Assembly (NCBI RefSeq): GCF_024029675.1
Contig: NZ_CP097121.1
Location: 1-64,000 of the forward strand
Direction of reading: 5' to 3'
Length of the DNA stretch: 64,000 nt
DNA from: Fructilactobacillus carniphilus
GTDB taxonomy: Bacteria > Bacillota > Bacilli > Lactobacillales > Lactobacillaceae
Below the pieces are notes generated by a model. It did not search any database and was not told where the DNA came from. It worked only from the letters and a program-made list of their open reading frames with translations. Positions 750 to 44,929 of this stretch are shown here, one piece after another. Position numbers and translations under genes: made by a program. Each line of letters opens with the position of its first letter. The stretch's first letter is position 1.

Positions 750-1919
750 ATGATTGATTGGTTCTTTATGTATGATTTTATCATAGATATTTATGATGCT
801 AATAATTGGGAGAAGCATAGGTTAGGAGACTTATCTAAAATTGTACGTGGTGCTTCTCCGAGACCAATAAAAAATCCAAAATGGTTTGACGAAAATTCTG
901 ATATCGGGTGGCTTCGTATCGCAGATGTTACTAAACAAAATGGTAAAATTCACTTTTTAGAACAACATTTATCTAAATTAGGTCAAGAAAAAACTAGAAT
1001 TTTAAAATCACCTCATTTACTTTTAAGCATTGCTGCAACAGTTGGGAGTCCAGTTATAAACTATATTCCAACTGGAGTGCATGATGGATTTCTAATTTTT
1101 TTAAATCCAAAATTCGATAAATTATTCATGTTTCAATGGTTACAATATTTTAAAAATTACTGGAATAAATATGGACAACCAGGAAGCCAAGTTAATTTAA
1201 ATTCAGATTTAGTTCGTAACCAACAAATATATATTCCAGCTAAAAAAGAACAAATAATAATTAGTGATCTTTTTAGTATTCTTGATAATCTACTTACTGT
1301 CAATCAGCATAAATTAGAACAACTGAAATTACTAAAAAAAGCGCTATTACAGCAATTATTCCCCCAAAATGATGAAATAACTCCTCAAATTAGATTTGCT
1401 AATTTTCAAGATAATTGGGAACGGCATAAATTAAGTGATCTATTCTTAATAAAAGCTGGTGGAGACCTTCATAAGGAAGAATTATCTGAAACAGGTATAT
1501 ATCCTGTCATTTCTAATTCCTTAGAAAAAAATGGAATAATCGGATATAGTAATTCTTTTAAATTTGATAGTCCAACAATAACAGTAACTGGAAGAGGATC
1601 AATAGGTCATGCAATATCTAGACATGAAAGAATAACTCCAGTGATTAGGGTTCTTGTATTAATTCCTAAAAATAAAATTAATGTAGACTTTACTACTGAG
1701 TATATAAATCGTATAGAAATATATAATGAATCAACAGGAGTACCCCAACTTACAGCTCCACAACTTGGGATTTATAAAATATTAGTTCCAAGTTTTAAAG
1801 AAACAAATTTAATCGGATGTATAACTAGAAAAATGGATCTTCTAATTAATAAATCAAAATATAAAATTTCAATTTTAAAATCTATAAAAAAAGCACTTCT
1901 CCAAAACATGTTCATATAA
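750..1919 (+). CDS. hsdS: Inverted, probably silent hsdS copy (specificity cassette)
   Basis: This encodes two target-recognition domains of a type I specificity subunit, separated by a conserved spacer helix (VNQHKLEQLKLLKKALLQQL) and ending in a second conserved helix near KKALLQNMF. It lies opposite to hsdM and hsdS. It lacks the normal N-terminus: homology to the expressed copy begins only at NNWEKHRLGDL, and the residues before it (MIDWFFMYDF...) look like read-through of the junction. No good RBS precedes it. The TRDs differ from those of the expressed copy, except that the spacer helix is identical at DNA level over 115 bp. Known family behaviour is a storage cassette whose TRDs are exchanged into the expressed gene by inversion. 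That it is not expressed here is my inference. Confidence 0.8.
   Translation: MIDWFFMYDFIIDIYDANNWEKHRLGDLSKIVRGASPRPIKNPKWFDENSDIGWLRIADVTKQNGKIHFLEQHLSKLGQEKTRILKSPHLLLSIAATVGSPVINYIPTGVHDGFLIFLNPKFDKLFMFQWLQYFKNYWNKYGQPGSQVNLNSDLVRNQQIYIPAKKEQIIISDLFSILDNLLTVNQHKLEQLKLLKKALLQQLFPQNDEITPQIRFANFQDNWERHKLSDLFLIKAGGDLHKEELSETGIYPVISNSLEKNGIIGYSNSFKFDSPTITVTGRGSIGHAISRHERITPVIRVLVLIPKNKINVDFTTEYINRIEIYNESTGVPQLTAPQLGIYKILVPSFKETNLIGCITRKMDLLINKSKYKISILKSIKKALLQNMFI
805..819 (+). repeat. Short inverted repeat at the hsdS N-terminal junction, left arm
   Basis: A 15-bp sequence (ATTGGGAGAAGCATA) coding for the conserved NWEKH segment occurs here on the plus strand and again on the minus strand at 4143-4157, inside the expressed hsdS. 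Just beyond it the similarity continues with mismatches (GTTAGG). It marks the point where homology between the two copies starts, and could be a second crossover site that exchanges whole genes rather than only the distal TRD. Confidence 0.7.
1294..1408 (+). repeat. 115-bp perfect inverted repeat, left arm (hsdS inversion site)
   Basis: This stretch is identical to the reverse complement of 3543-3657. Both arms code for the central spacer helix of HsdS and the start of the second half (LTVNQHKLEQ... to ...IRFANF). The match ends sharply at both sides, where the TRD sequences diverge. Recombination between the arms would invert about 2.3 kb including the recombinase gene and swap the second TRD between the silent and the expressed copy. 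Confidence 0.95.
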
Positions 1920-1922
1920 AAG

Positions 1923-1956
1923 AAACCACCAAAATTCATAAAAATTTTGGTGGTTT
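1923..1956. terminator. Bidirectional terminator between silent hsdS and recombinase
   Basis: A perfect 14-bp stem (AAACCACCAAAATT / AATTTTGGTGGTTT) with a 6-base loop is flanked by T-rich sequence on both strands. It sits between the convergent ends of the silent hsdS copy and the recombinase gene. Confidence 0.85.
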
Positions 1957-1960
1957 TTAA

Positions 1961-2890
1961 CTAAACTAATTTAGACATCTGATACATAATTTTTTCACTA
2001 TCTTTAGCCTCTAACTCACGAATAATATGAATATAAGTTTCCTGAGTAGTTGTCATACTTGAATGCCCTAATCTTTGGGCTACTGTCGCAATTGAAACAT
2101 CTCCAAACAACAAAAGTGAAGCATGAGTATGACGTAACCCGTGAACAGTAATCACTGGTATTTTTGCTTTTTCGCATAATGTTTTTAAATAGTGATTTAC
2201 CGTAGAGTTGAATATCCGTTTTTTAGTAACAAAAATTGGCTTATCTTTTGGTAAATCTTTAATCAGTTGTGATAATTGCATTGCTAATTGCCAATCAATT
2301 CGAACACTACGTACTGATGATTCATTTTTGGTCTTTTGAAAACTACCATGAAATGATTTATAGTCCCATGTTTTATTAACTCGAAGCATTTGACTTTGAA
2401 AGTCAAAATCATTGGGAGTTACCGCTAACGCTTCAGAAAACCGAAGGCCAGTTTTAAGGACTAACATTAAAAACCAATCCCAATTAATTTCATTTCCTAA
2501 ATCTAATCGATGAATTAATTTTTGCAGTTCTGCCTCATTTAAAAATTTAATTTTCTTTTTCTGTGGAGATTTTCCCTTAATTACAGCATTCCTAGTTGGA
2601 TTAATTGGTATCAACCCTTCATCAACTGCATCTAGGATCGAACTTTTAATCTGGTGATGAAAATCTAATGTTGTTTGATGTTCGTGAGTAGAAGCATATT
2701 CATTAATGATTTCTTGATAGGCCCGTTTCGACAAATCCTTTAAATATAAATTCGGTGCAATTCTGCGAACCCATTTTAAATTAATTCTGTACTTATTTAG
2801 AGTTACTTCTCTAACGGCGTCCTGCTTATATAAATCGATCCACTCATCAAAGTACTCATAAAATAATTGACTTTTCTTTCTTCTTCCCAT
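1961..2890 (-). CDS. Tyrosine recombinase (phage-integrase family), hsdS inversion
   Basis: A 309-residue site-specific recombinase. An N-terminal SAM-like DNA-binding domain (about residues 5-95) is followed by the catalytic domain with Arg in TGLRFSEA, His-x-x-Arg in HGLRH, a second His in LGHSS and the nucleophilic Tyr in QETYIH. The ATG at 2890 is chosen over an in-frame ATG 11 codons upstream because GAGGAG lies 8 bases before it. The gene lies between two oppositely oriented hsdS copies, the usual place for the recombinase of phase-variable type I systems in lactobacilli, streptococci and Bacteroides. Its job is therefore inferred to be shuffling of TRDs at the 115-bp repeats. It lies inside the invertible segment, so its own orientation would flip as well. 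Confidence 0.9.
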   Translation of the reverse strand: MGRRKKSQLFYEYFDEWIDLYKQDAVREVTLNKYRINLKWVRRIAPNLYLKDLSKRAYQEIINEYASTHEHQTTLDFHHQIKSSILDAVDEGLIPINPTRNAVIKGKSPQKKKIKFLNEAELQKLIHRLDLGNEINWDWFLMLVLKTGLRFSEALAVTPNDFDFQSQMLRVNKTWDYKSFHGSFQKTKNESSVRSVRIDWQLAMQLSQLIKDLPKDKPIFVTKKRIFNSTVNHYLKTLCEKAKIPVITVHGLRHTHASLLLFGDVSIATVAQRLGHSSMTTTQETYIHIIRELEAKDSEKIMYQMSKLV

Positions 2891-3542
2891 AATAAAACTC
2901 CTCAATAAGTATATTTTGTGCAATTAAAAACACAAATACTATTATCTCGGAGTTTTGGTTAATTATAAAAACATTTTTTCCAAAAGTGCCTTTTTTAAAT
3001 CTTTTATGTGTTTAATTTTTTCATCGCAAGTATCTATTCTATTATCAACTTTTAATATAATATTTCCTATTTTTTCTTGTTCTTTAATTTCAGGAATAGG
3101 AATAGATATATCCATCATCTTTGTTTTAGATATATTAAATCTAGAAATACCTTGTGCTAATAAAATGATTTTTCTTCTAATATTTTGAGATCTAAGCATA
3201 AATGCCAGATAATTTAAATCGACTTCTTGTAGTAGACGATATCCAAATGAAAAGCTATTTAGATATACATTTGGCATATTATATTTCCAAACACTAGACA
3301 TACCAACTTCGTTTGGAGTTTCTGATGAAGTAGTAAAAAATATATCTCCACATTTAACTTCAATTTGTTTTTTATCAATTTCAATTTTATCTAAAGCAAA
3401 TTTAGAAGTAATCGGATTTTTAAAAACATTTATATAAGTAACATATTTGGCATTACCATGGCCAAAATCCTGTTTGGTTTTTCCTGAAATTCCAGAAAAC
3501 GATTTACCCATTTCTCCTAACTTTCGATAGTCCCAATCATCG

Positions 3543-3657
3543 TGAAAATTAGCAAATCTAATTTGAGGAGTTATTTCATCATTTTGGGGGAATAATTGCT
3601 GTAATAGCGCTTTTTTTAGTAATTTCAGTTGTTCTAATTTATGCTGATTGACAGTAA
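3543..3657 (-). repeat. 115-bp perfect inverted repeat, right arm
   Basis: Reverse complement of 1294-1408 with no mismatch. It lies in the middle of the expressed hsdS, between its two recognition domains, and is the likely crossover region for the adjacent tyrosine recombinase. Confidence 0.95.
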
Positions 3658-4142
3658 TTAGATCATCAATTTTTTTAAACAGATTTCCTATCTTTTCTTG
3701 TTCATCTAAATCGGGAATCGGGACCATTATATTCATTATTTTTGATTTAGAAATATTAAATCTAGAAATGCCTTGTGCCAAAATAACAATATTTTTCCTA
3801 ATGTTTTGAGATCTAAGCATAAAAGCTAAGTAATTTAAATTAAAATTATAAGTAGGACGATATCCAAATGAAAAACTATTTAAATAAATATTTTTATAAT
3901 TATAAATCCAAACGCTAGACATTCCTACTTCTAAAGGGGTTTCTGAAGAAGTAGTAAAAAAAACATCACCTTTTTTCACTTCATTTTGTTTTCTATCAAT
4001 TTCAATTTTATCCAATTGCTTTTTGAAGTAATTGGATTTTTAAAAACATTAAGATAAGTAACGTATCTAGCATTTCCATGCCCAAAATCTTTTTTAGTTT
4101 TTCCAGAGATTCCTGTAAAGGTATTTCCCAATTCGCCTAACT

Positions 4143-27858: not shown

Positions 27859-28185
27859 ATGAAGATGATTCCAGAGAACATGGAAGAGGTCCAAAAGCGA
27901 CTCACCGACCGCCAAGCGCACGGGGAGCAGATTACGGAAGACCAACTGATTTACGAAACCGTTTGTGATTTATTGCAGGCTTACCTAATTAATGCTGAAG
28001 AAGGGCACTATGATTCGGTCAAACCAGTTGACGACCAGACCCTGGAGTTTGTTAGCGTGATGGGCAAACACCTCGGAAATTACACGGCCAAGGGCACGAG
28101 TTTAGTGGCAGATTTTAAACAAGATTCGTTTCAGATGCTCCTGGATTTAGAAGCTGCGGCCCAACGAATCGCGGGTGGTCGCTAA
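27859..28185 (+). CDS. Small protein of unknown function, about 108 aa
   Basis: A soluble, acidic, helical protein (ITEDQLIYETVCDLLQAYLINAEEGHYD ... LGNYTAKGTSLVADF). No family is recognised. An in-frame ATG exists at 27829, but a TATAAT element (27834-27839) lies just after it, so translation more likely starts at 27859 or 27865 behind GAGAGG. It lies directly upstream of tRNA-Arg on the same strand and divergent from the FAD protein. Confidence 0.65.
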   Translation: MKMIPENMEEVQKRLTDRQAHGEQITEDQLIYETVCDLLQAYLINAEEGHYDSVKPVDDQTLEFVSVMGKHLGNYTAKGTSLVADFKQDSFQMLLDLEAAAQRIAGGR

Positions 28186-28192
28186 CGCCGGG

Positions 28193-28221
28193 TTGCAAAC
28201 CAGGGTTGAAATCAGTACAAT
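28193..28221 (+). promoter_or_regulatory. Promoter of tRNA-Arg
   Basis: TTGCAA (28193-28198), 17 bases and TACAAT (28216-28221) end 11 bases before the first tRNA base, the usual distance for a tRNA promoter. It overlaps the end of the upstream gene only slightly. Confidence 0.7.
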
Positions 28222-28232
28222 AGTGCTGTAAA

Positions 28233-28304
28233 GCGTCCCTAGTGTAACGGATAGCACATGAGATTTCGGTCCTCATGATCTCGGTTCGACTCCGAGGGGA
28301 CGCA
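28233..28304 (+). tRNA. tRNA-Arg, anticodon UCG
   Basis: A 72-base cloverleaf. The acceptor stem is GCGTCCC/GGGACGC with discriminator A28304, D-stem GTGT/GCAC, and T-stem CTCGG/CCGAG with loop TTCGACT. The anticodon loop TTTCGGT gives TCG at 28266-28268, reading CGN arginine codons. The last pair of the anticodon stem (position 31-39) is an A-C mismatch. CCA is not encoded. It is followed by a hairpin terminator. No copy of its 3' end is visible downstream, so no phage-type attachment duplication can be claimed. Confidence 0.92.
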
Positions 28305-28320
28305 TTTTACGAATAACAAA

Positions 28321-28344
28321 GGGGAGCGGGTACCGCTCCTTTTT
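28321..28344 (+). terminator. Terminator of tRNA-Arg
   Basis: Stem GGAGCGG (28323-28329) / CCGCTCC (28333-28339) with a 3-base loop, followed by TTTTT. Confidence 0.8.
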
Positions 28345-28369
28345 AGTTTAAAATGGAGGAACAACGAAC

Positions 28370-28786
28370 ATGGCATTACCGACGGAACAACAAATTATTG
28401 AACAGGCCCAAACTACGGTCACACGGCTACGGAAAAAACTGGCTTACTACCGGACGCTTTCGGCGATTAGTAACATTACCCGGATTATCCTGTCTGCTTC
28501 GATCCCACTGCTGGTGTCGATGGCCTCGCATAACATTAAGATTTTAGCGATTGTTTCATTGACTGGGGTGGCAATGAGTATTATCCAGGGGATTGACTCT
28601 TTCTTTGATTTGTCTGGGAAGGTTTCTGAGCTCAAGCAATCCATTTTGTCGACCAATAAGGAGATCCTCTTATTAACGTCGCACAATGACCCTTATGATG
28701 CGGACAGCGATGCTCAGAACGTGCAACGATTTATGGGTAATCTGGCAGAAACCCTTGATGGAATTGTTGATAACATTGAAAACTAA
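28370..28786 (+). CDS. Small two-helix membrane protein (SLATT/DUF4231-like)
   Basis: A 138-residue protein with an N-terminal amphipathic helix rich in Arg/Lys (about 10-30), two close membrane helices (about 33-52 and 57-75, ending in the IIQGIDSFFD turn) and a cytosolic helical tail. This layout resembles SLATT/DUF4231 domain proteins, some of which are linked to defence or effector systems, but the match is only by shape. GGAGG lies 10 bases before the ATG. It lies just outside the left end of the accessory region. Confidence 0.6.
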   Translation: MALPTEQQIIEQAQTTVTRLRKKLAYYRTLSAISNITRIILSASIPLLVSMASHNIKILAIVSLTGVAMSIIQGIDSFFDLSGKVSELKQSILSTNKEILLLTSHNDPYDADSDAQNVQRFMGNLAETLDGIVDNIEN

Positions 28787-28804
28787 AGTTTATTTAAAAA
28801 AGTA

Positions 28805-28911
28805 AATTATAAACAAAAGGCTACAGAATCCGTTAAGGATTCCATCGCCTAGTGTCATACTCATTTATTAAATTATCTACTCATCAGTACCATTTGACAA
28901 AGAGCCTAAAT
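28805..28911 (+). mobile_element. Remnant end of an ISL3-family insertion sequence
   Basis: About 100 bases look like the terminal part of an ISL3-type element. The outer end reads GGCTCTTTGTCAAATGGTAC on the minus strand (ending at plus 28911), followed by TGATGAGTAG. Inside it lies a hairpin around GAATCC/GGATTC (28828-28850) that resembles the terminator after an ISL3 transposase. No transposase coding sequence is attached. It forms the left border of the AT-rich methylase-nuclease segment. Confidence 0.65.
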
Positions 28912-28959
28912 TATACACAAAATTTTAAAAAATATTAATATATATTTATTGAAATTTAT

Positions 28960-30702
28960 TTATTTATATAAATCATCGAAGAAATTTTTAATATCTTGTG
29001 AAAGTTTATCAGTATTTTCATTTTTTCCTGGAACTTTTGATAATTCATACTTGATTTGTCCAATTTTATAGTTATTATTTTGTAACTCTAAAGTTGATTC
29101 TAAAGATTTTATATTAGGTTGATTACTGGTCTTTAAATTACGTTTCAATAATTCTTCATCTAGGTTATCAATAAATTTTTCTCCATTTCTTGTTTTTTCT
29201 TTTTGTATTTTTATAATTTTTTCTGCAAGATCTTCTTTAGTAAAAAAATAATCTTCAATTGTTAAATCATTGCTTAAATTATATATTTTTAATTTTGAAT
29301 TTTTTCTTAATTCTTTTTCACTTTCAATATTCTTTTTAACTTTTTGGCCTTCATTGTCACCGTCTAATAAAATAAAAATATTTCTTTCAATCTTACTTAC
29401 GTAATCTAAATACTTTAATATTGGCAATATTCCATTTGCTCCAGATGAAATGAACTTCCATTTTTTGTATTCATTACCATATCTTATTTGAGGTCTATGA
29501 TCATCTGGTAAAAGATAATCTAAATAATTTTTATCTGTAATTCCTTCGACAATAATGATATCTTCGCAATCATCCACATTATCTATTAACCCATATTTTA
29601 TTAAAACTTCATTTTTAACTTTTTGATTATATTTTGATATTATCGATGATTTTACAATATCCTCTTCATTTTTTGAACGAGAAAATTTTTTCATTTCACT
29701 ATGTTGAGTTAGATTATAAAAACTGTATTTTTTGTTTGAAGTTTCAGCAATAAATTGTGGTGAATGAGTTGTTATAAAAGATTGCATTTGATCGTTAGAA
29801 TCAATTACTTTCTGAAATATATTCTTTAGAGATTTAACTAATGTAGGATATAAAAATGCTTCAGGTTCATCAAGAAGAATAATTGTATTTTTATTTTTAT
29901 ATAAATTATTCACTAAAAAAAGATTCATTAAAATTATACTACTTCTTTGTACACCGGATCCTTTTACTTTTAAAGGTTGTGAGTAAGTATCATTTATCTT
30001 CACTTGGAAGTTATCGATCAGGAAATCTGTTATTTTTTGTTCTTTAGTAATTTCTAACTCTGGATAAAATGATTGTGGTAAATTTTGAAAATCAGATTTC
30101 ATCCCTTCTGATAAAATTTGTAAATTATTTTTTAGATTAGTAATTAAAGTTTTATATGAATTTTCAAAATCATCAATTGATTTTTTTATTTTTCTGTTTT
30201 TTCTTTTATAATAAGAAAGAATCATATCTGTTAAAACTCTATCTGCTTGATCAGTAATTGATTCATCAGTTGCGCCTAGATAAACAATTTTAAATTTATT
30301 TTGTATAAAATTTAGAATATCCTTTGTTGAGCTATGTTCATTTAAATTATTTAAACTTGTTCCATCAACGATGTCATAGTTATACTGTATGCCATTGTTT
30401 TTTTTACTAAACGCTAGTTTTATTTTTAGATGCTTATCCTGATTAGTATCTAGTAAGTCAATTCTTAAAATTGGATGTGATGATCCACCACCAGTTATTC
30501 TATTTATATAATTTCTATCTTCGTATTCGTTGTATGAATCGGGATTAAAAAATAAATTTAATGCACGTAGCACATTTGTCTTTCCGGTATTATTTTCTCC
30601 TGTTAAAACGTTTATTGATTTTAGATTATTAAAATCTTTACTGTTATGCTGTTCTTTAAATGATCTAAAATTGCCTATAGTAAATGAATTTATTTTTATC
30701 AT
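28960..30702 (-). CDS. OLD-family ATP-dependent nuclease (AAA ATPase plus TOPRIM)
   Basis: A 580-residue protein. The N-terminal ABC/SMC-type ATPase has Walker A GENNTGKT (residues 35-42), a signature-like segment VKGSGVQRSSIIL, Walker B IILLDEPEAF (Asp278-Glu279) and the switch histidine in TTHSPQF. The C-terminal TOPRIM domain carries Glu386 in IIVEGITDK and Asp447/Asp449 in LLDGDNEG, the metal-binding residues of OLD nucleases. GajA of Gabija has the same domain order. The gene is translated 31 bases after the Dam-type methylase gene on the same strand, both are strikingly AT-rich, and no UvrD-like helicase partner is present. A defence role as the nuclease arm of a two-gene system is inferred. 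It could also act alone, like phage P2 Old. Confidence 0.9.
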   Translation of the reverse strand: MIKINSFTIGNFRSFKEQHNSKDFNNLKSINVLTGENNTGKTNVLRALNLFFNPDSYNEYEDRNYINRITGGGSSHPILRIDLLDTNQDKHLKIKLAFSKKNNGIQYNYDIVDGTSLNNLNEHSSTKDILNFIQNKFKIVYLGATDESITDQADRVLTDMILSYYKRKNRKIKKSIDDFENSYKTLITNLKNNLQILSEGMKSDFQNLPQSFYPELEITKEQKITDFLIDNFQVKINDTYSQPLKVKGSGVQRSSIILMNLFLVNNLYKNKNTIILLDEPEAFLYPTLVKSLKNIFQKVIDSNDQMQSFITTHSPQFIAETSNKKYSFYNLTQHSEMKKFSRSKNEEDIVKSSIISKYNQKVKNEVLIKYGLIDNVDDCEDIIIVEGITDKNYLDYLLPDDHRPQIRYGNEYKKWKFISSGANGILPILKYLDYVSKIERNIFILLDGDNEGQKVKKNIESEKELRKNSKLKIYNLSNDLTIEDYFFTKEDLAEKIIKIQKEKTRNGEKFIDNLDEELLKRNLKTSNQPNIKSLESTLELQNNNYKIGQIKYELSKVPGKNENTDKLSQDIKNFFDDLYK

Positions 30703-30733
30703 TATGCCCTTTTCCCCTAAAAATATAGTATTG

Positions 30734-31585
30734 TTAATAGTTTTTTATTAATAATTCTTGAACTTCACCGCGTCCAGAAGTATTCGAGTTTATATTTCTT
30801 TTTGCTGAAACAATTTTAGTAGTATTTTTATATTTTTCGTATAAATTTTCTATTAAAGGTACTTTTGAATTAGATAACATGGCATAGACACCCTTATTAG
30901 TTAACTCGTCAAAAACATTACGAAGTCTTATTTGTTGATCTTTTCCGAATCCATTTATTGTATATCCAACAAAACTTTCTCTATCTTGAGTTAACGGAGC
31001 ATATGGAGGATCTAAATATACAAAATCTCCTTTTTTTGCTTTTTTAATTGCATTATAGTAATCCCCGTTAAGAATAGTTGCTTCTGAATTATTTAGATAC
31101 AATGATGCTTTTCTTAAATTTTCAACATTAACAATTGAAGGATGTTTATAACGACCATAAGGTACATTAAATTGTTCCTGAGAATTTACGCGAAATAGTC
31201 CATTAAACCCAGTTTTATTTAAATAAATAAATCTTGCTGCACGCTCTGTATTGGATTTATTTTCAATGGAATTAGTTCTATCCCATGAACGTAGTTTGTA
31301 GTAATATTCTTTACTATTATTATTTTCATGTATTTTCAATAGATTGATTAAATTTTCGACATCATTCTTAACGACCATATAAGAATTAATTAATTCCCTA
31401 TTAAAATCATTAATTATTGGATGATTACATTTTATATTAAAAAATACAGCACCTCCACCTATAAAAGGTTCATAATAATTATTAATTTTATCTGGTATAT
31501 ATTTCATTATCTCTGGTAATAACTGTCTTTTTCCCCCAGCCCATTTAACAAATGGTTCAGCGGAATTGCTTTTTTCAATAACCAT
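30734..31585 (-). CDS. Dam-type DNA adenine methyltransferase (D12 class)
   Basis: A 283-residue N6-adenine methyltransferase of the alpha/D12 class. The SAM-binding motif is FVKWAGGKRQLL at about 12-23. YYEPFIGGGAVFF follows near 40, then the recognition region KTGFNGLFRVNSQEQFNVPYGRY near 135-155, and the catalytic DPPY at 192-195. The pattern resembles DpnM and Dam, which methylate GATC; that specificity is inferred. It is the first gene of an AT-rich operon with an OLD-family nuclease, in the place where a restriction enzyme would be expected. AGGGATT lies before the ATG. No DpnII-type endonuclease is present. Confidence 0.9.
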   Translation of the reverse strand: MVIEKSNSAEPFVKWAGGKRQLLPEIMKYIPDKINNYYEPFIGGGAVFFNIKCNHPIINDFNRELINSYMVVKNDVENLINLLKIHENNNSKEYYYKLRSWDRTNSIENKSNTERAARFIYLNKTGFNGLFRVNSQEQFNVPYGRYKHPSIVNVENLRKASLYLNNSEATILNGDYYNAIKKAKKGDFVYLDPPYAPLTQDRESFVGYTINGFGKDQQIRLRNVFDELTNKGVYAMLSNSKVPLIENLYEKYKNTTKIVSAKRNINSNTSGRGEVQELLIKNY

Positions 31586-31870
31586 ATTAATCCCTTCAAA
31601 ACAATAAATAAATTAATTAGTATAATTAAGATGTTAGTAGAATTATATTTTAATTAATAATATACCATTTTTTATAATTTGAATAGTTAATTTGGATTAA
31701 ATTAATTTCTCAATAAAAATAACCTAATATTAAGAGATGAAAATTTTTGAAACTAATTAATTATTTCGGAGATATTCACAAATTTTATAATTCCATTAAC
31801 TTATTATGAAAAGTAGTAACTAAAATAATTTATTCATTTTTCTATAAAAATTATGCATTATTTTTTTAAA
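31586..31870. other. AT-rich gap upstream of the methylase operon
   Basis: This stretch contains almost only A and T, with several short inverted repeats (for instance around 31650-31680). No convincing coding sequence is seen. It should hold the promoter of the methylase-OLD operon, but no single -35/-10 pair stands out. Confidence 0.5.
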
Positions 31871-32953
31871 TTTTTAATAACTTATTGCGTTTTAATGTAC
31901 GTCTGGCACGTTTCATTTTCTCAGGAAGATTTTGATATTAATCTTTATGCTTAGCTGAATTAAGAAGATTTGCTAACTTATGCTTATTATGCGGTTTGGT
32001 TACTAATGATTAATATTTTGATAGAATTCATAGGCATCACGAAGTGATGGTGATAAGGAAAGTAATCTTTCGACAAGCTCTGTATCGGTCAAACAAGCGT
32101 ATTTATAGTTTCTTCTTCGTTTGAAGATTTGGTAGTTTAATTCTTAAAATTTCTTGAAAAGTAACTTATATAAACCTTTTTAGCTGGCGGTATTCGGGAG
32201 TATTACTGCCATAAGCTTTCATTACATTAATTCGTTCTTTGTTTAGGGCTTTATATGCTTGGTTAACGACATGGAAGCGGTCCGTTATAATTTGCCACTT
32301 CTGCTTTGAATGATGTTGATTAGTTGATGTGTTTCTGAATTCATTAGTGCCATGCTCATGCCATTTGGTGACATTTTCCTCAATTTGAAATCATCAAAGG
32401 CAATATGTTGGGGTAAATAGCTATAACCAGTTTTATGATATTTAGCTAAGCCTTCGACTTATTTCATAGCGATATTAGTTGAGATAACAAAGTTTTCAGC
32501 GATTTATTTGATGTTGATATTAGAGCTTAATTGTAGTGCTGAATTTACTTTTACGTTTCTGATAATATGATCGTTAGGATTAATGTCTTTTAATTAGGGT
32601 AATTCCGTATGATGACAGTATTTACAAATTTATTTTTGTTTCTTTGTGATAAGAAAGTTTAAGCCCCAAAGCCCTGCAGGTGCTAAGTGTTAAACTGTTT
32701 TAAAGCCATTCTTATTCAAGTAATGTCCACAATTCTTGCATCTTAATTTATAGGTCAGGATAAAGCGCCAATAGTTTTTAGTAACTCCATTTGTTTTAAC
32801 AATTGTTATTTTATTTATAACAATTAACTCTTTTTAGGGAGTAGGAGCAGATCGGGAGCGACCGATATGTTCTTTTTATTTTCACTAATTATACAAAAAA
32901 GGTACTGACTACATTCGCTTAGTGAATGTCATCAGTACCAAAAAGTGTAGAAC
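31871..32953 (-). pseudogene. Degenerate ISL3-family transposase and IS end
   Basis: Conceptual translation of the minus strand gives blocks of an ISL3 transposase in the right order but in shifting frames with several stops. These are the N-terminal zinc-finger region (KLRCKNCGHYLNKNGFKTV ... ICKYCHH), FDDFKLRKMSPNGMSMALM, the catalytic segment IITDRFHVVNQAYKALNKERINVMK, SLSPSLRDAYEFYQNI and a C-terminal LPEKMKRARRTLKRNK. The expected C-terminal SNGPIEGxNNKIK part is missing. At the N-terminal side a hairpin (32901-32939, GGTACTGA ... TCAGTACC) and ATCAGTACC resemble the IS end at 28911. No intact transposase remains. It forms the right border of the accessory segment. Confidence 0.85.
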
Positions 32954-33049
32954 AAAAATAACTAAGTTATTGAAAATATTTTTAATAAATATTTATATAA
33001 TTAACTGCATATACTATATTATATAAAAAATTGATTTGGTTTATAGTAG

Positions 33050-33649
33050 TTACTTATTCAATTCAGATTGACTTAACCACTTGTGGTTGGTGTATTTTTG
33101 ACCCCCGTTAGTTGGAGTGAAGTTGACGGCGTAAGCAGGGCCGGAGCAAACTTTCACAATCTTACCCTTGGCGTTCTTCATGCCGTCCATATGATCAGCG
33201 TTGATAGTGACCTTGGTTCCCTTGCATAACTTCTTGCCTTTTTCAGCCTTTAATTCAGACTTAACCACGTACTTGTGGTTCTTAACTTCTTTGTTAGTCT
33301 TGCTGTCTTTGAAGTCAACTACGTACAACGGAGAGTCGTAAACACCGGCAACGGTCGCCTTAGCACCTTTCATGCCCATCATGTGGTCGGCAGTAATGGT
33401 TACCTTTTCTCCGACCTTGTACTTCGGATGCTTGGCCTTCTTCAAATCAGTTGGTAACTGGGCGTCATGATTCATTTCCATCTTCATGTTATCGCCCATG
33501 TTCATCTGATCTTCAGACTTCTTGTCCATTTTTTTACTGCTCATGGTTTTGTCGCTAGCGGCGTGAACCGTGCTGGGAATAATGCTTGTGGCGGTCGAAA
33601 GACCCAAACCAGCTAGGGCAGCAATTGTAAATAACTTCCGTTTTAACAT
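33050..33649 (-). CDS. Exported protein with two DUF1541 (YdhK-type) repeats
   Basis: A 199-residue secreted or surface protein. A signal peptide (MLKRKLFTIAALAGLGLSTA..., cleavage near VHA-AS) is followed by a Met/Lys/Asp-rich linker (about 28-65). Then come two tandem DUF1541 domains (about 70-130 and 135-195), each with the repeated KVTI-ADHM-GMK-AK pattern, a YVV or YAV strand and NHK-VV/WL near the end. The ATG at 33649 with GGAG upstream is preferred over an earlier in-frame ATG. DUF1541 proteins often sit with metal-resistance genes, and the His/Met residues could bind copper, but no such neighbour is here. Confidence 0.85.
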   Translation of the reverse strand: MLKRKLFTIAALAGLGLSTATSIIPSTVHAASDKTMSSKKMDKKSEDQMNMGDNMKMEMNHDAQLPTDLKKAKHPKYKVGEKVTITADHMMGMKGAKATVAGVYDSPLYVVDFKDSKTNKEVKNHKYVVKSELKAEKGKKLCKGTKVTINADHMDGMKNAKGKIVKVCSGPAYAVNFTPTNGGQKYTNHKWLSQSELNK

Positions 33650-33766
33650 CAGTAACAGCTCCTTCAAACTATCCAATTTAATATTCAACAATTTAATTGT
33701 ATATCTTGTAGTTGGGAAATGCCATAAATTAGTTTGAAACGGGCATAGGAATTTTTAAAACGAACG

Positions 33767-34015
33767 TTGACAAAAAATATAGGATTTAGTATGCTAATTT
33801 TACCCTAAACGGAGTACCAGAGGCAGAGTTAGACCAGGGATTGTTCGGAAACTGCAAAGAACAACTGCTCGACTGGGAAGGCAGTTAGGGATTAACGACA
33901 GATGAATACTTTTTCTTAGCGCTAAGAAAATGAGGCCGATTGTGAGAGCAAGCGGTAAAATAAGGTGGAACAGTGATCAGACGCCCTTGTACGAATGTAC
34001 AGAGGCGTCTTTTTT
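33767..34015 (+). promoter_or_regulatory. T-box riboswitch with its promoter, probably glycine-specific
   Basis: Promoter TTGACA (33767-33772), 17 bases, TATGCT (33790-33795). The leader shows stem I: basal helix CCCTAA (33803-33808) with TTAGGG (33885-33890), middle helix CCAG (33834-33837) with CTGG (33873-33876), and upper helix ATTGTTC with GAACAAC. The specifier loop between CTGG and TTAGGG reads GAAGGCA, giving specifier GGC (33880-33882), a glycine codon. The T-box sequence AAGGTGGAACAGTG contains TGGA (33966-33969), which pairs with the ACCA-less end of a tRNA with discriminator U, as tRNA-Gly has. The terminator AGACGCC/GGCGTCT (33979-34010) plus TTTTTT follows. Uncharged tRNA-Gly would permit transcription of glyA. 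The class is clear; the amino acid is inferred. Confidence 0.85.
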
Positions 34016-34036
34016 AGTTAGAGAGGAATAAATGAT

Positions 34037-35269
34037 ATGACTGATTGGCAAGCACAAGATCCAGAAATTTGGCAGGCAGTTCAAGCAGAAGCAGACCGGC
34101 AGGAACACGTGATTGAATTAATTGCATCGGAAAACATTGCTTCACAGGCAGTCCGGGCGGTCCAGAGCTCGGTCTTAACCAATAAGTACGCCGTGGGTTA
34201 TCCCGAAAGCCGGGTGTATACCGGAAACGAAGCGATCGATCGCATTGATAATTTAGCGCGGCAACGAGCCCAGGACCTCTTTGGGGCCGAATACGCGAAC
34301 GTCTTTCCGCATTCTGGAACCCAGGCGAACCAGGCAGTGTACGCGGCCTTGCTGGAGCCGGGGGATCGCATCTTAGCGATGAGTGAACACGCCGGGGGTC
34401 ACTTTACCCACGGTCAGGCGCATAACTTTTCGGGGCAACTGTATGATGCTCAGTTTTACGGTGTGGATCCGGCAACGGAACTATTGGATTACGAGCAGAT
34501 TGAGCGCCAGGCACGGGAGTGGCAGCCGAAGTTAATCATCACCGGAGCTTCTGCGTACAGTCAGTTAATTGACTGGGAACGGATGCGCGTAATTGCTGAC
34601 GAAGTGGGCGCCTAACTGATGGTCGACATGGCGCACATTGCCGGTCTGATTGCGGGTGAGGTGTTACCGAGTCCAGTACCGGTAGCCGACGTTGTGACTT
34701 CGACCACCCACAAAACCCTCCGGGGACCCCGGGGCGGGATGATTTTAGCCAAGCGGGAATATGCTGACCGGCTTAACGAAGCGGTCTTTCCCCGTTCTCA
34801 AAGTGGAACGTTAGAACAAATTGTGGCCGCTAAGGCAATTGCGTATCGCGAAGCCCAACAACCAGAATTTCGGCAGTACGCGCAACAGGTGGTTAACAAC
34901 GCGCAGTTGATGGCGCAGGTTTTGAACGAAACCTCCAACGTGCGGGTGGTTACCGGAGGCACGGTTAACCACGAGTTAACTTTAGACGTCCGCGCCACTG
35001 GCATGACGGGGGGAGTAGCTGCGAACTTGCTCTACTCGGTCGGAATTGCGACTAACAAGGAATTGTTGCCGTTAGAAATCGGGAACGTGATGGAAGGAAT
35101 TCGGATTGGAACACCCACGATTACCAGCCGCAACTTTACGGAGGAAGCCGTGCAAACCGTAGCTGATTTAATTGGAACCGTCTTAAATCATCCCCAGGAC
35201 GAAGCCGTCCTGACGACCGCTCGGCAGGAAGTTCAACGTCTGACCCAACAATTTCCCGCCACCCGTTAA
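34037..35269 (+). pseudogene. glyA: Serine hydroxymethyltransferase interrupted by one in-frame stop codon
   Basis: GlyA converts serine and tetrahydrofolate to glycine and methylene-tetrahydrofolate with PLP. The sequence matches the family along its whole 410 codons ([10 protein letters not shown] near 18, ESRVYTGNE, the PLP lysine Lys226 in STTHKTLRG, GTPTITSRNF near the end). At 34613-34615 a TAA stands where family members have Tyr (DEVGAYLMVDMAHIAG). Reading stays in the same frame on both sides, and nothing else is damaged. Translation would give a 192-residue fragment without the PLP lysine. The downstream part could only be made from the ATG at 34619. It is either a very recent loss, a sequencing error, or read-through. 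It is controlled by the T-box above. Confidence 0.92.
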
Positions 35270-44138: not shown

Positions 44139-44774
44139 TTAATTTTTTAAATATCCTTTTATCTCGTCATAATAGCGATTAATTAAATCTTTAGCGTATA
44201 TTTTTTCTTTATCACTATTTTTAACGTGTTTCCATAATATAGATGCAACCTTCATGGTTGAATTAAATTTAGTTGACTGACAATCCTGCCTGAAATTTTT
44301 CACGAAAGTATTCCATTGATATGTTTTTTCTTCGTTATTAACATCTAAATTTATAATGTCTTTATTTTCATATACAGCTAACAAATCTTTTACAACTGCC
44401 TTTTTGTCATTTGACCTTTCAATTTCTCTCATTTTAATTCCCATTGCTTTAGTAAAAGAAAATTTTTTGACACCGTAGAACTTACAAAAAAATTTTCGAG
44501 CATCACTATTTAAACTAAAACCAGAATCTAAAATTGGAGTTGATAATGTTATATGATTTAGTGATTTTGATTTACGTCTTTTGATTCTCACAGGCTTTAT
44601 TTCTTTGCTGGGTTTTCCGTCTAAAAAGCTAACGATGTAACTTGTTAATTCATATTTTGTTCCGTAGGATGGTAAATCATATTTTTTACAAATATCTTGT
44701 AATTCTGATTTATACCAATAATATTTTTTGAAATTTTCAGACTTCATGTAGCAATTGAATATTGGTCTATCCAT
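44139..44774 (-). CDS. SAP-domain/DUF6434-type protein, 211 aa
   Basis: Very Lys-rich and AT-rich. The N-terminal part (about 1-50, WYKSELQDICKKYDLPSYGTKYELTSYIVSFLDG) fits a SAP helix-turn-helix that binds nucleic acid. It is followed by a basic linker (PVRIKRRKSKS), then LSTPILDSGFSLNSDARKFFCKFYG... (about 75-130), which resembles DUF6434, and a C-terminal helical region (WNTFVKNFRQDCQ ... KVASILWKHVK). The ATG at 44774 with GGAG 7 bases upstream is preferred. Composition differs from its neighbours, so transfer is likely. The function is unknown, with DNA binding inferred. It starts about 150 bases from the asnB terminator. Confidence 0.75.
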   Translation of the reverse strand: MDRPIFNCYMKSENFKKYYWYKSELQDICKKYDLPSYGTKYELTSYIVSFLDGKPSKEIKPVRIKRRKSKSLNHITLSTPILDSGFSLNSDARKFFCKFYGVKKFSFTKAMGIKMREIERSNDKKAVVKDLLAVYENKDIINLDVNNEEKTYQWNTFVKNFRQDCQSTKFNSTMKVASILWKHVKNSDKEKIYAKDLINRYYDEIKGYLKN

Positions 44775-44929
44775 TTTAATCTCCATATATTTTCCACAAA
44801 ATATAAATAACTTAAATGACATTTTACTCTTATCGTAAAAATTAAACAGGTTGGAAATTATAGATATCTTTTACTAATAAGTAATTTATGCATAGCTTAG
44901 CATATGCTCGGCAAATAGAAGACAAACAA

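Follow-up and report, generated by a model that had tools for sequence, protein, structure and literature searches.

A rare pairing of a DpnM-like adenine methylase with an OLD-family ATPase/TOPRIM protein, resembling a remodelled bacterial defence system

The two-gene cassette and its insertion site

The window, by which we mean the whole stretch of 64,000 nucleotides analysed, carries two intact minus-strand genes within an AT-rich insertion (Table 1): a DpnM-like adenine methylase gene (MTase) and, behind it, a gene for an OLD-family protein (OLD). The order, strand, coordinates and 31-bp gap given in the original prediction agree with both the open reading frame list and the sequence. A terminator scan found no terminator-like site in the gap between the genes and placed one past the OLD stop, two such sites being found in the region against 1.1 expected by chance. 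The only other open reading frame of at least 60 aa in the insertion is a 73-aa antisense one.

Table 1. Coordinates of the features at the MTase-OLD locus
Feature	Position	Strand	Basis
Whole 4.25-kb AT-rich insertion	28787..33036		Comparison with genus relatives
Left remnant, terminal part of an ISL3-family element, in opposite orientation to the right remnant	28804..28906	-	94% to G224:C1:595177-595279
Terminator-like hairpin, 114 bp past the OLD stop	28823..28845	-	Terminator scan
OLD-family ATPase/TOPRIM gene, 580 aa	28960..30702	-	ORF; AAA_15/AAA_21; full-length PADLOC Old; invariant motifs in 60 relatives; AF2 model and Foldseek
31-bp intergenic gap, purine-rich ribosome-binding-like stretches ahead of the OLD start	30703..30733	-	Sequence read and scan
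DpnM/Dam-type N6-adenine methyltransferase gene, 283 aa	30734..31585	-	TIGR00571; DpnM 2dpm; tree
Right remnant, decayed body of the same ISL3-family element	31884..32951		Three pieces, 85-90% to G224:C1:595444-596699; DDE_Tnp_ISL3 fragment

Both genes were predicted to be far richer in AT than their surroundings, and so they are: GC content is 23.5% in OLD and 27.1% in MTase versus 45.8% in the window once the insertion is set aside, while GC3 is nearly equal in the two (13.4% and 14.4%, respectively). The nearest MTases of other loci have 36% GC, compared with the 27.1% found here, and from this low and matched composition we infer that the two genes have probably resided together in AT-rich DNA for a time. 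Further very AT-rich open reading frames, at 750-4015 and 44139-44822 of the window (26-32% GC; whole window 44.5%), are candidate insertions.

Compared with the genus relative G207, whose flanks are 92-93% identical, the 4.25 kb are extra DNA in the window. The site is empty in three of the four genus relatives examined (G207, G224 and G144), where 40-61 bp stand in its place, and the fourth (G167) holds a different 2.2-kb insert carrying a Schlafen AlbA_2-type gene (L132:5247-6791; window flank 28370-28786). The site thus collects unrelated genes and may be a hotspot at which defence-type genes are inserted. It lies between a gene close to tRNA-Arg, called SLATT-like on a score below that model's cut-off, and a DUF1541 gene. 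The insertion sequence remnants said to bracket the pair are indeed present and, judged against fuller copies in G224, are two parts of a single ISL3-family element lying in opposite orientations; one fragment of the right remnant matches DDE_Tnp_ISL3 at 24.2 bits (cut-off 23). Elsewhere in the window, at 34037-35269, a glyA-like (SHMT) gene is split into two open reading frames by one in-frame stop; G207 has an uninterrupted frame at the matching position, and a second glyA-like place, 65% similar, is found at 685339-686254 of the same genome.

The methylase, its usual partners and the OLD protein

The MTase scores 286 bits against the Dam family model TIGR00571 (cut-off 115) and 221 bits against MethyltransfD12 (cut-off 22), its best PDB relative is DpnM (2dpm, E 2e-85) and the DPPY motif is present, in line with the Dam/DpnM-like adenine methyltransferase with catalytic motif originally proposed. 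Profiles, 2dpm and tree all identify it as the cognate-methylase component of a DpnII-kind type II restriction-modification (R-M) system. Its recognition stretch aligns with that of E. coli Dam, an alignment read by what we take to be the DNA-contact residues of that enzyme. It is also 54% and 52% identical to the MTases of the S. thermophilus CNRZ1202 and lactococcal pSRQ700 plasmids, respectively, both tied to GATC systems in an excerpt of PMC11514479. Relatives and Dam alignment together point to GATC as its probable specificity.

The nearest MTases, 70-72% identical, belong to Lactobacillaceae plasmids and to the genus relative G063, all with REase_II systems; the closest among the loci examined is that of G063 (71%, locus L102), with its restriction enzyme gene 14 bp downstream. 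In a tree of 44 rows, from which one MTase with stops (L126) was left out, the window MTase joins an L. brevis plasmid MTase and that of L102 at 100/99, and this group sits inside an REase_II-linked clade (99/97), apart from the clade of Streptococcus MTases linked to OLD. At least three label changes are needed on the tree to account for the OLD-linked MTases, which therefore lack a single origin.

Matches to the window MTase occur in 50 of 301 Lactobacillaceae genomes (51 places). Among the best 30 of these places, L126 included and partner classes being assigned by eye, the neighbour is REase_II-like in 15, a DpnII enzyme in 9 and a small PD-(D/E)XK-type protein in 4; in one of the remaining two no restriction-type gene was seen, and the other is the window, the only one with OLD. 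REase_II-like here denotes DUF6996/DUF6997/DUF7226 proteins (PADLOC type II restriction enzyme PDLC03513) and includes three weak cases: L112 (28%, convergent), L118 (26%, two open reading frames) and L129 (31%, divergent). The PD-(D/E)XK-type neighbours are presumed restriction enzymes, with PDDEXK_11 scores at the cut-off. The expectation that DpnM-type methylases usually pair with a restriction enzyme is hence borne out in 28 of the best 30 Lactobacillaceae loci, or 28 of the 29 other than the window. No DpnII, REase_II or PDDEXK-type match was found in 28701-33100, and a distinct restriction partner elsewhere, which would have told against the original prediction, was not found when the organism's own genome was searched with proteins of all three types (the REase_II and PD-(D/E)XK-type searches ran without a positive control). 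Since the window MTase is nested in the REase_II-linked clade, OLD occupies the position held by the restriction enzyme in its relatives.

The OLD protein exceeds the cut-offs of both AAA_15 and AAA_21 and matches the PADLOC 'Old' profile over its full length (1-575 to 1-575 of 578), while no Pfam TOPRIM model matched it at E 0.01. The residues Lys41, Asp278/Glu279, Glu386/Asp390, Asp447/Asp449, Glu483/Asp484 and Lys551 do not vary among the 60 relatives aligned. An AF2 model (pLDDT 83.5) retrieved OLD, GajA and the retron Eco8 effector in Foldseek at E-values of 1e-17 to 1e-13 with TM-scores of only ~0.4, the latter two being among the best full-length folds. An N-terminal ABC-type ATPase and C-terminal TOPRIM-type residues thus occur in one protein, as expected of the OLD family and as predicted at the outset, complete motifs included; these motifs suggest a nuclease.

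Rarity and linkage of the OLD subfamily

A protein search returned 72 sequences of at least 36% identity (the window's own included) among 120 listed of 141 matches, below which scores fall from 291 to 101 bits. The ten relatives with organism names, among the matches listed, are all Bacillota (Weissella, Staphylococcus, Mammaliicoccus, Macrococcus, Lactococcus, Streptococcus, Erysipelothrix and Lachnospira). Scans for OLD gave 16 loci in genome contigs, four of them in the subfamily, and 27 viral loci, none in the subfamily. Among sampled species it was seen only in the organism's own genome out of 301 Lactobacillaceae, in 2 of 247 Streptococcus, in 3 of 395 from the order and in 2 of 398 from the class, one of the latter distant. 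The subfamily is distinct and rare.

All six subfamily loci found have a DpnM-like MTase within 5 kb, versus 6 of 47 more distant OLD-like loci. Besides the window, with its two genes 31 bp apart, they are Streptococcus taonis (L024), a minimal two-gene pair in which OLD comes first, the opposite order, and the genes abut; another Streptococcus (G821, locus L073) with nearly the same cassette but a broken OLD; a Bacillota MAG (L025) with one gene between MTase and OLD; Lachnospira (L026), with the MTase at 2.0 kb; and a Clostridia MAG (L027), with the MTase at 2.8 kb and OLD broken. The cassettes of L024 and L073, both downstream of valS, are nearly identical; counting such near-copies once gives 5/5 versus 6/47 (one-sided Fisher p 2e-4, or 8e-4 without the window), in a small sample and for genes of a kind that clusters anyway.

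The 47 comparison loci, many of which are not proven OLD genes but partial matches to ATPase motifs, consist of 39 from the scans (12 genome and 27 viral) and eight others: G483, the L. plantarum plasmid L080 and L083-L088. A D12 MTase lies near 4 of the 39 (4/27 viral and 0/12 genome contigs, five of the 12 having less than 5 kb of DNA on one side); one of the 12, L038, has an MTase at 7.2 kb, beyond the 5-kb limit. Two of the eight others are near an MTase, G483 (3.9 kb) and L080 (1.1 kb), the latter taken into the comparison because OLD and MTase matches fell on the same plasmid, and L083-L088 gave 0/6.

Two pairs of OLD and MTase clusters (P0042/P0243 and P0024/P0301) have an identical longest-contig size above 5 kb, for 0.08 expected, and their MTases, which are near that of S. 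taonis, group with the Streptococcus OLD-linked MTases at 100/99. Applied to the window MTase, the same test matched nothing beyond itself in the 120 entries listed out of 8000 scored. Within the Streptococcus-type trio, OLD and MTase diverge alike, with identities of 62-66% for either protein; longest-contig size matches underlie two of the three pairs. OLD is broken beside an intact MTase in two of the six loci, and the reverse was never seen. Overall, the pairing looks non-random. The anticipated recurrence of the two genes as neighbours is therefore confirmed for the OLD subfamily and DpnM-like MTases at large, the S. taonis pair included, but the exact pair of window-type MTase and window-type OLD was not seen outside the window.

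Several loci are more elaborate. In L025, a 152-aa protein corresponding to the DUF7226 domain at the C-terminus of REase_II (L025:7531-7986) stands alone between MTase and OLD and may represent a detached component serving target recognition or as an adaptor. L026 holds an HNH gene, OLD, a PDDEXK_11-like gene (below cut-off), a D12 MTase, a second MTase and a DpnII enzyme, and L027 an MTase, a DpnII enzyme, a weakly NucS-like protein, a second MTase and an OLD remnant. A complete DpnII enzyme is thus kept in two of the six subfamily loci, where OLD may be an accessory effector. On plasmid L080 (L080:10-3870), an MTase, a small PD-(D/E)XK-type gene and a distant OLD stand one after another, and a MazF-type toxin-antitoxin pair comes next; there, as in L026 and L027, OLD is no replacement of the restriction enzyme. 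The next related OLD, in G483 (29%), lies alongside a D12 MTase, a HerA-like ATPase and a 444-aa protein with no Pfam or PADLOC match (L074:6215-12712), perhaps another methylase-OLD system. In G821 the cassette is followed by a protein that is C5 methylase-like by eye and one with weak NgoFVII C-terminal similarity. The arrangements in L026, L027, L080, G483 and G821 are equally compatible with an accessory effector and with a replacement.

Readings of the pair and known systems

To our knowledge, OLD proteins act in several defence systems and the trigger and restraint of many are unknown, and the tenor of excerpts of PMC6755086 and PMC10952713 is the same. We tentatively favour a defence pair in which methylation restrains a nuclease. 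It starts from the observed pair, its insertion, the intact motifs, the restriction slot and the recurrent linkage, and would work as an inserted, restriction-modification-like cassette: the MTase would mark host GATC sites, and OLD, in the slot of the restriction enzyme, would be an ATP-gated nuclease effector held off while GATC is methylated or the methylase present, its TOPRIM domain cutting upon arrival of unmethylated DNA or loss of methylation. GATC specificity, nuclease activity and methylation control are here all presumptive. The 6/6 linkage, the direct meeting of both genes in the window and the Streptococcus cassette, the parallel divergence of the Streptococcus-type trio, the near-equal GC3 and, suggestively, the L025 gene order speak for this pair, as does the broken OLD beside an intact MTase in two loci, small as that number is. 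Against it stand the complete DpnII enzymes of L026 and L027, the L080 arrangement, the separate clade of the Streptococcus OLD-linked MTases and the want of a co-located OLD for window-type MTases in the longest-contig size test. An excerpt of PMC8136825 describes GajA as a site-specific nicking enzyme silenced by nucleotides, which gives a precedent for an OLD-type protein cutting DNA at preferred sequences but places GajA under nucleotide control. It is doubtful, though conceivable, that the pair represents R-M of a new make-up, under GATC-methylation control, in which an ATP-gated OLD/TOPRIM protein displaced the classical enzyme and the subfamily joined GATC-type methylases of different lineages (Streptococcus and Lactobacillaceae types) more than once.

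PARIS and retron Eco8 effectors fire on a phage protein or an anti-restriction factor. OLD could likewise be a backup or guard effector added to GATC R-M loci, firing whatever the methylation state, with the restriction enzyme lost from the window. We consider this somewhat unlikely: it agrees with OLD near complete DpnII systems, with its place on L080 and with the retron Eco8 and GajA folds, as well as with an excerpt of PMC12839542 in which OLD ATPases are likely backup effectors in BREX loci and PARIS senses Ocr, but no restriction enzyme was seen beside the pair in the window or in S. taonis and OLD holds the restriction slot in the former. That an orphan GATC methylase from an R-M system and an independent class 1 OLD were merely brought together by insertion sequences would explain the flanking element parts, the descent of the MTase from an REase_II-linked line, the unrelated gene at the same site in G167 and the singularity of the exact pair; the subfamily linkage over a lower background, the shared strand, short gap and matched composition, and the abutting genes in Streptococcus make such chance neighbourhood improbable. 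The methylase-OLD defence pair originally predicted is partly supported: it gains from the linkage, the S. taonis pair and the restriction searches of its own genome, and loses from the complete DpnII enzymes near OLD in two of six loci.

An OLD subfamily linked to a methylase whose specificity can be predicted offers a concrete and testable candidate restraint, DNA methylation. If true, the methylation-restrained pair would form a bridge between R-M and OLD-type systems, an ATP-gated nuclease having naturally taken the place of a restriction enzyme. The claim that no named system has exactly this pair holds in that no title or abstract start found names it, among the matches listed from the open-licence literature; an excerpt of PMC10853773 likewise has nothing bearing on a DpnM-like MTase with OLD. 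Excerpts elsewhere name Menshen among the further systems for which an OLD nuclease is predicted (PMC10952713) and describe PD-lambda-5, with a predicted methyltransferase, as a compacted RM plus Abi system (PMC9519451).

Like class 1 OLD proteins and P2 Old, the window protein combines ATPase and TOPRIM-type motifs in a single polypeptide with a full-length profile match, but class 1 genes are isolated whereas this one follows a same-strand methylase; the excerpted survey sets them against helicase-linked class 2 genes and places 107 of 837 OLD genes in species-specific operons (PMC6755086). Fold and domain order resemble GajA of Gabija, but the insertion lacks a UvrD-like helicase gene. It also has no open reading frame of reverse-transcriptase size, as an Eco8-type retron would need together with its msr-msd RNA, and an Rfam search of 28000-34200 at the gathering cut-off returned tRNA only. 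With PARIS (AriA/AriB) and BREX-linked effectors it shares an OLD-type ATPase of a kind described beside DNA modification systems in an excerpt of PMC12839542, a survey of OLD ATPases as backup effectors in BREX that also cites previous accounts in which such ATPases accompany nucleases in RM-like systems; unlike these, the unit comprises one GATC-type MTase and one OLD, and the insertion holds no further genes, AriB included. PARIS combines the ATPase AriA with the TOPRIM protein AriB (DUF4435), either as separate proteins or fused; AriA/AriAB profiles match OLD partially (64-94 bits), the full-length match being to Old alone. Type II R-M systems with REase_II (PDLC03513) own the nearest methylases, but no trace of an REase_II gene is left in the insertion. 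Whereas DpnII and LlaDCHI-type II systems (GATC) pair their methylase with a known type of endonuclease, the partner here is an OLD ATPase/TOPRIM protein, with no DpnII or other known restriction enzyme beside it; what the cassette has in common with them is a DpnM-type methylase, which shares 51-54% identity with the methylases of GATC plasmid systems (L079 and L081), and an operon layout in which the effector directly adjoins the methylase.
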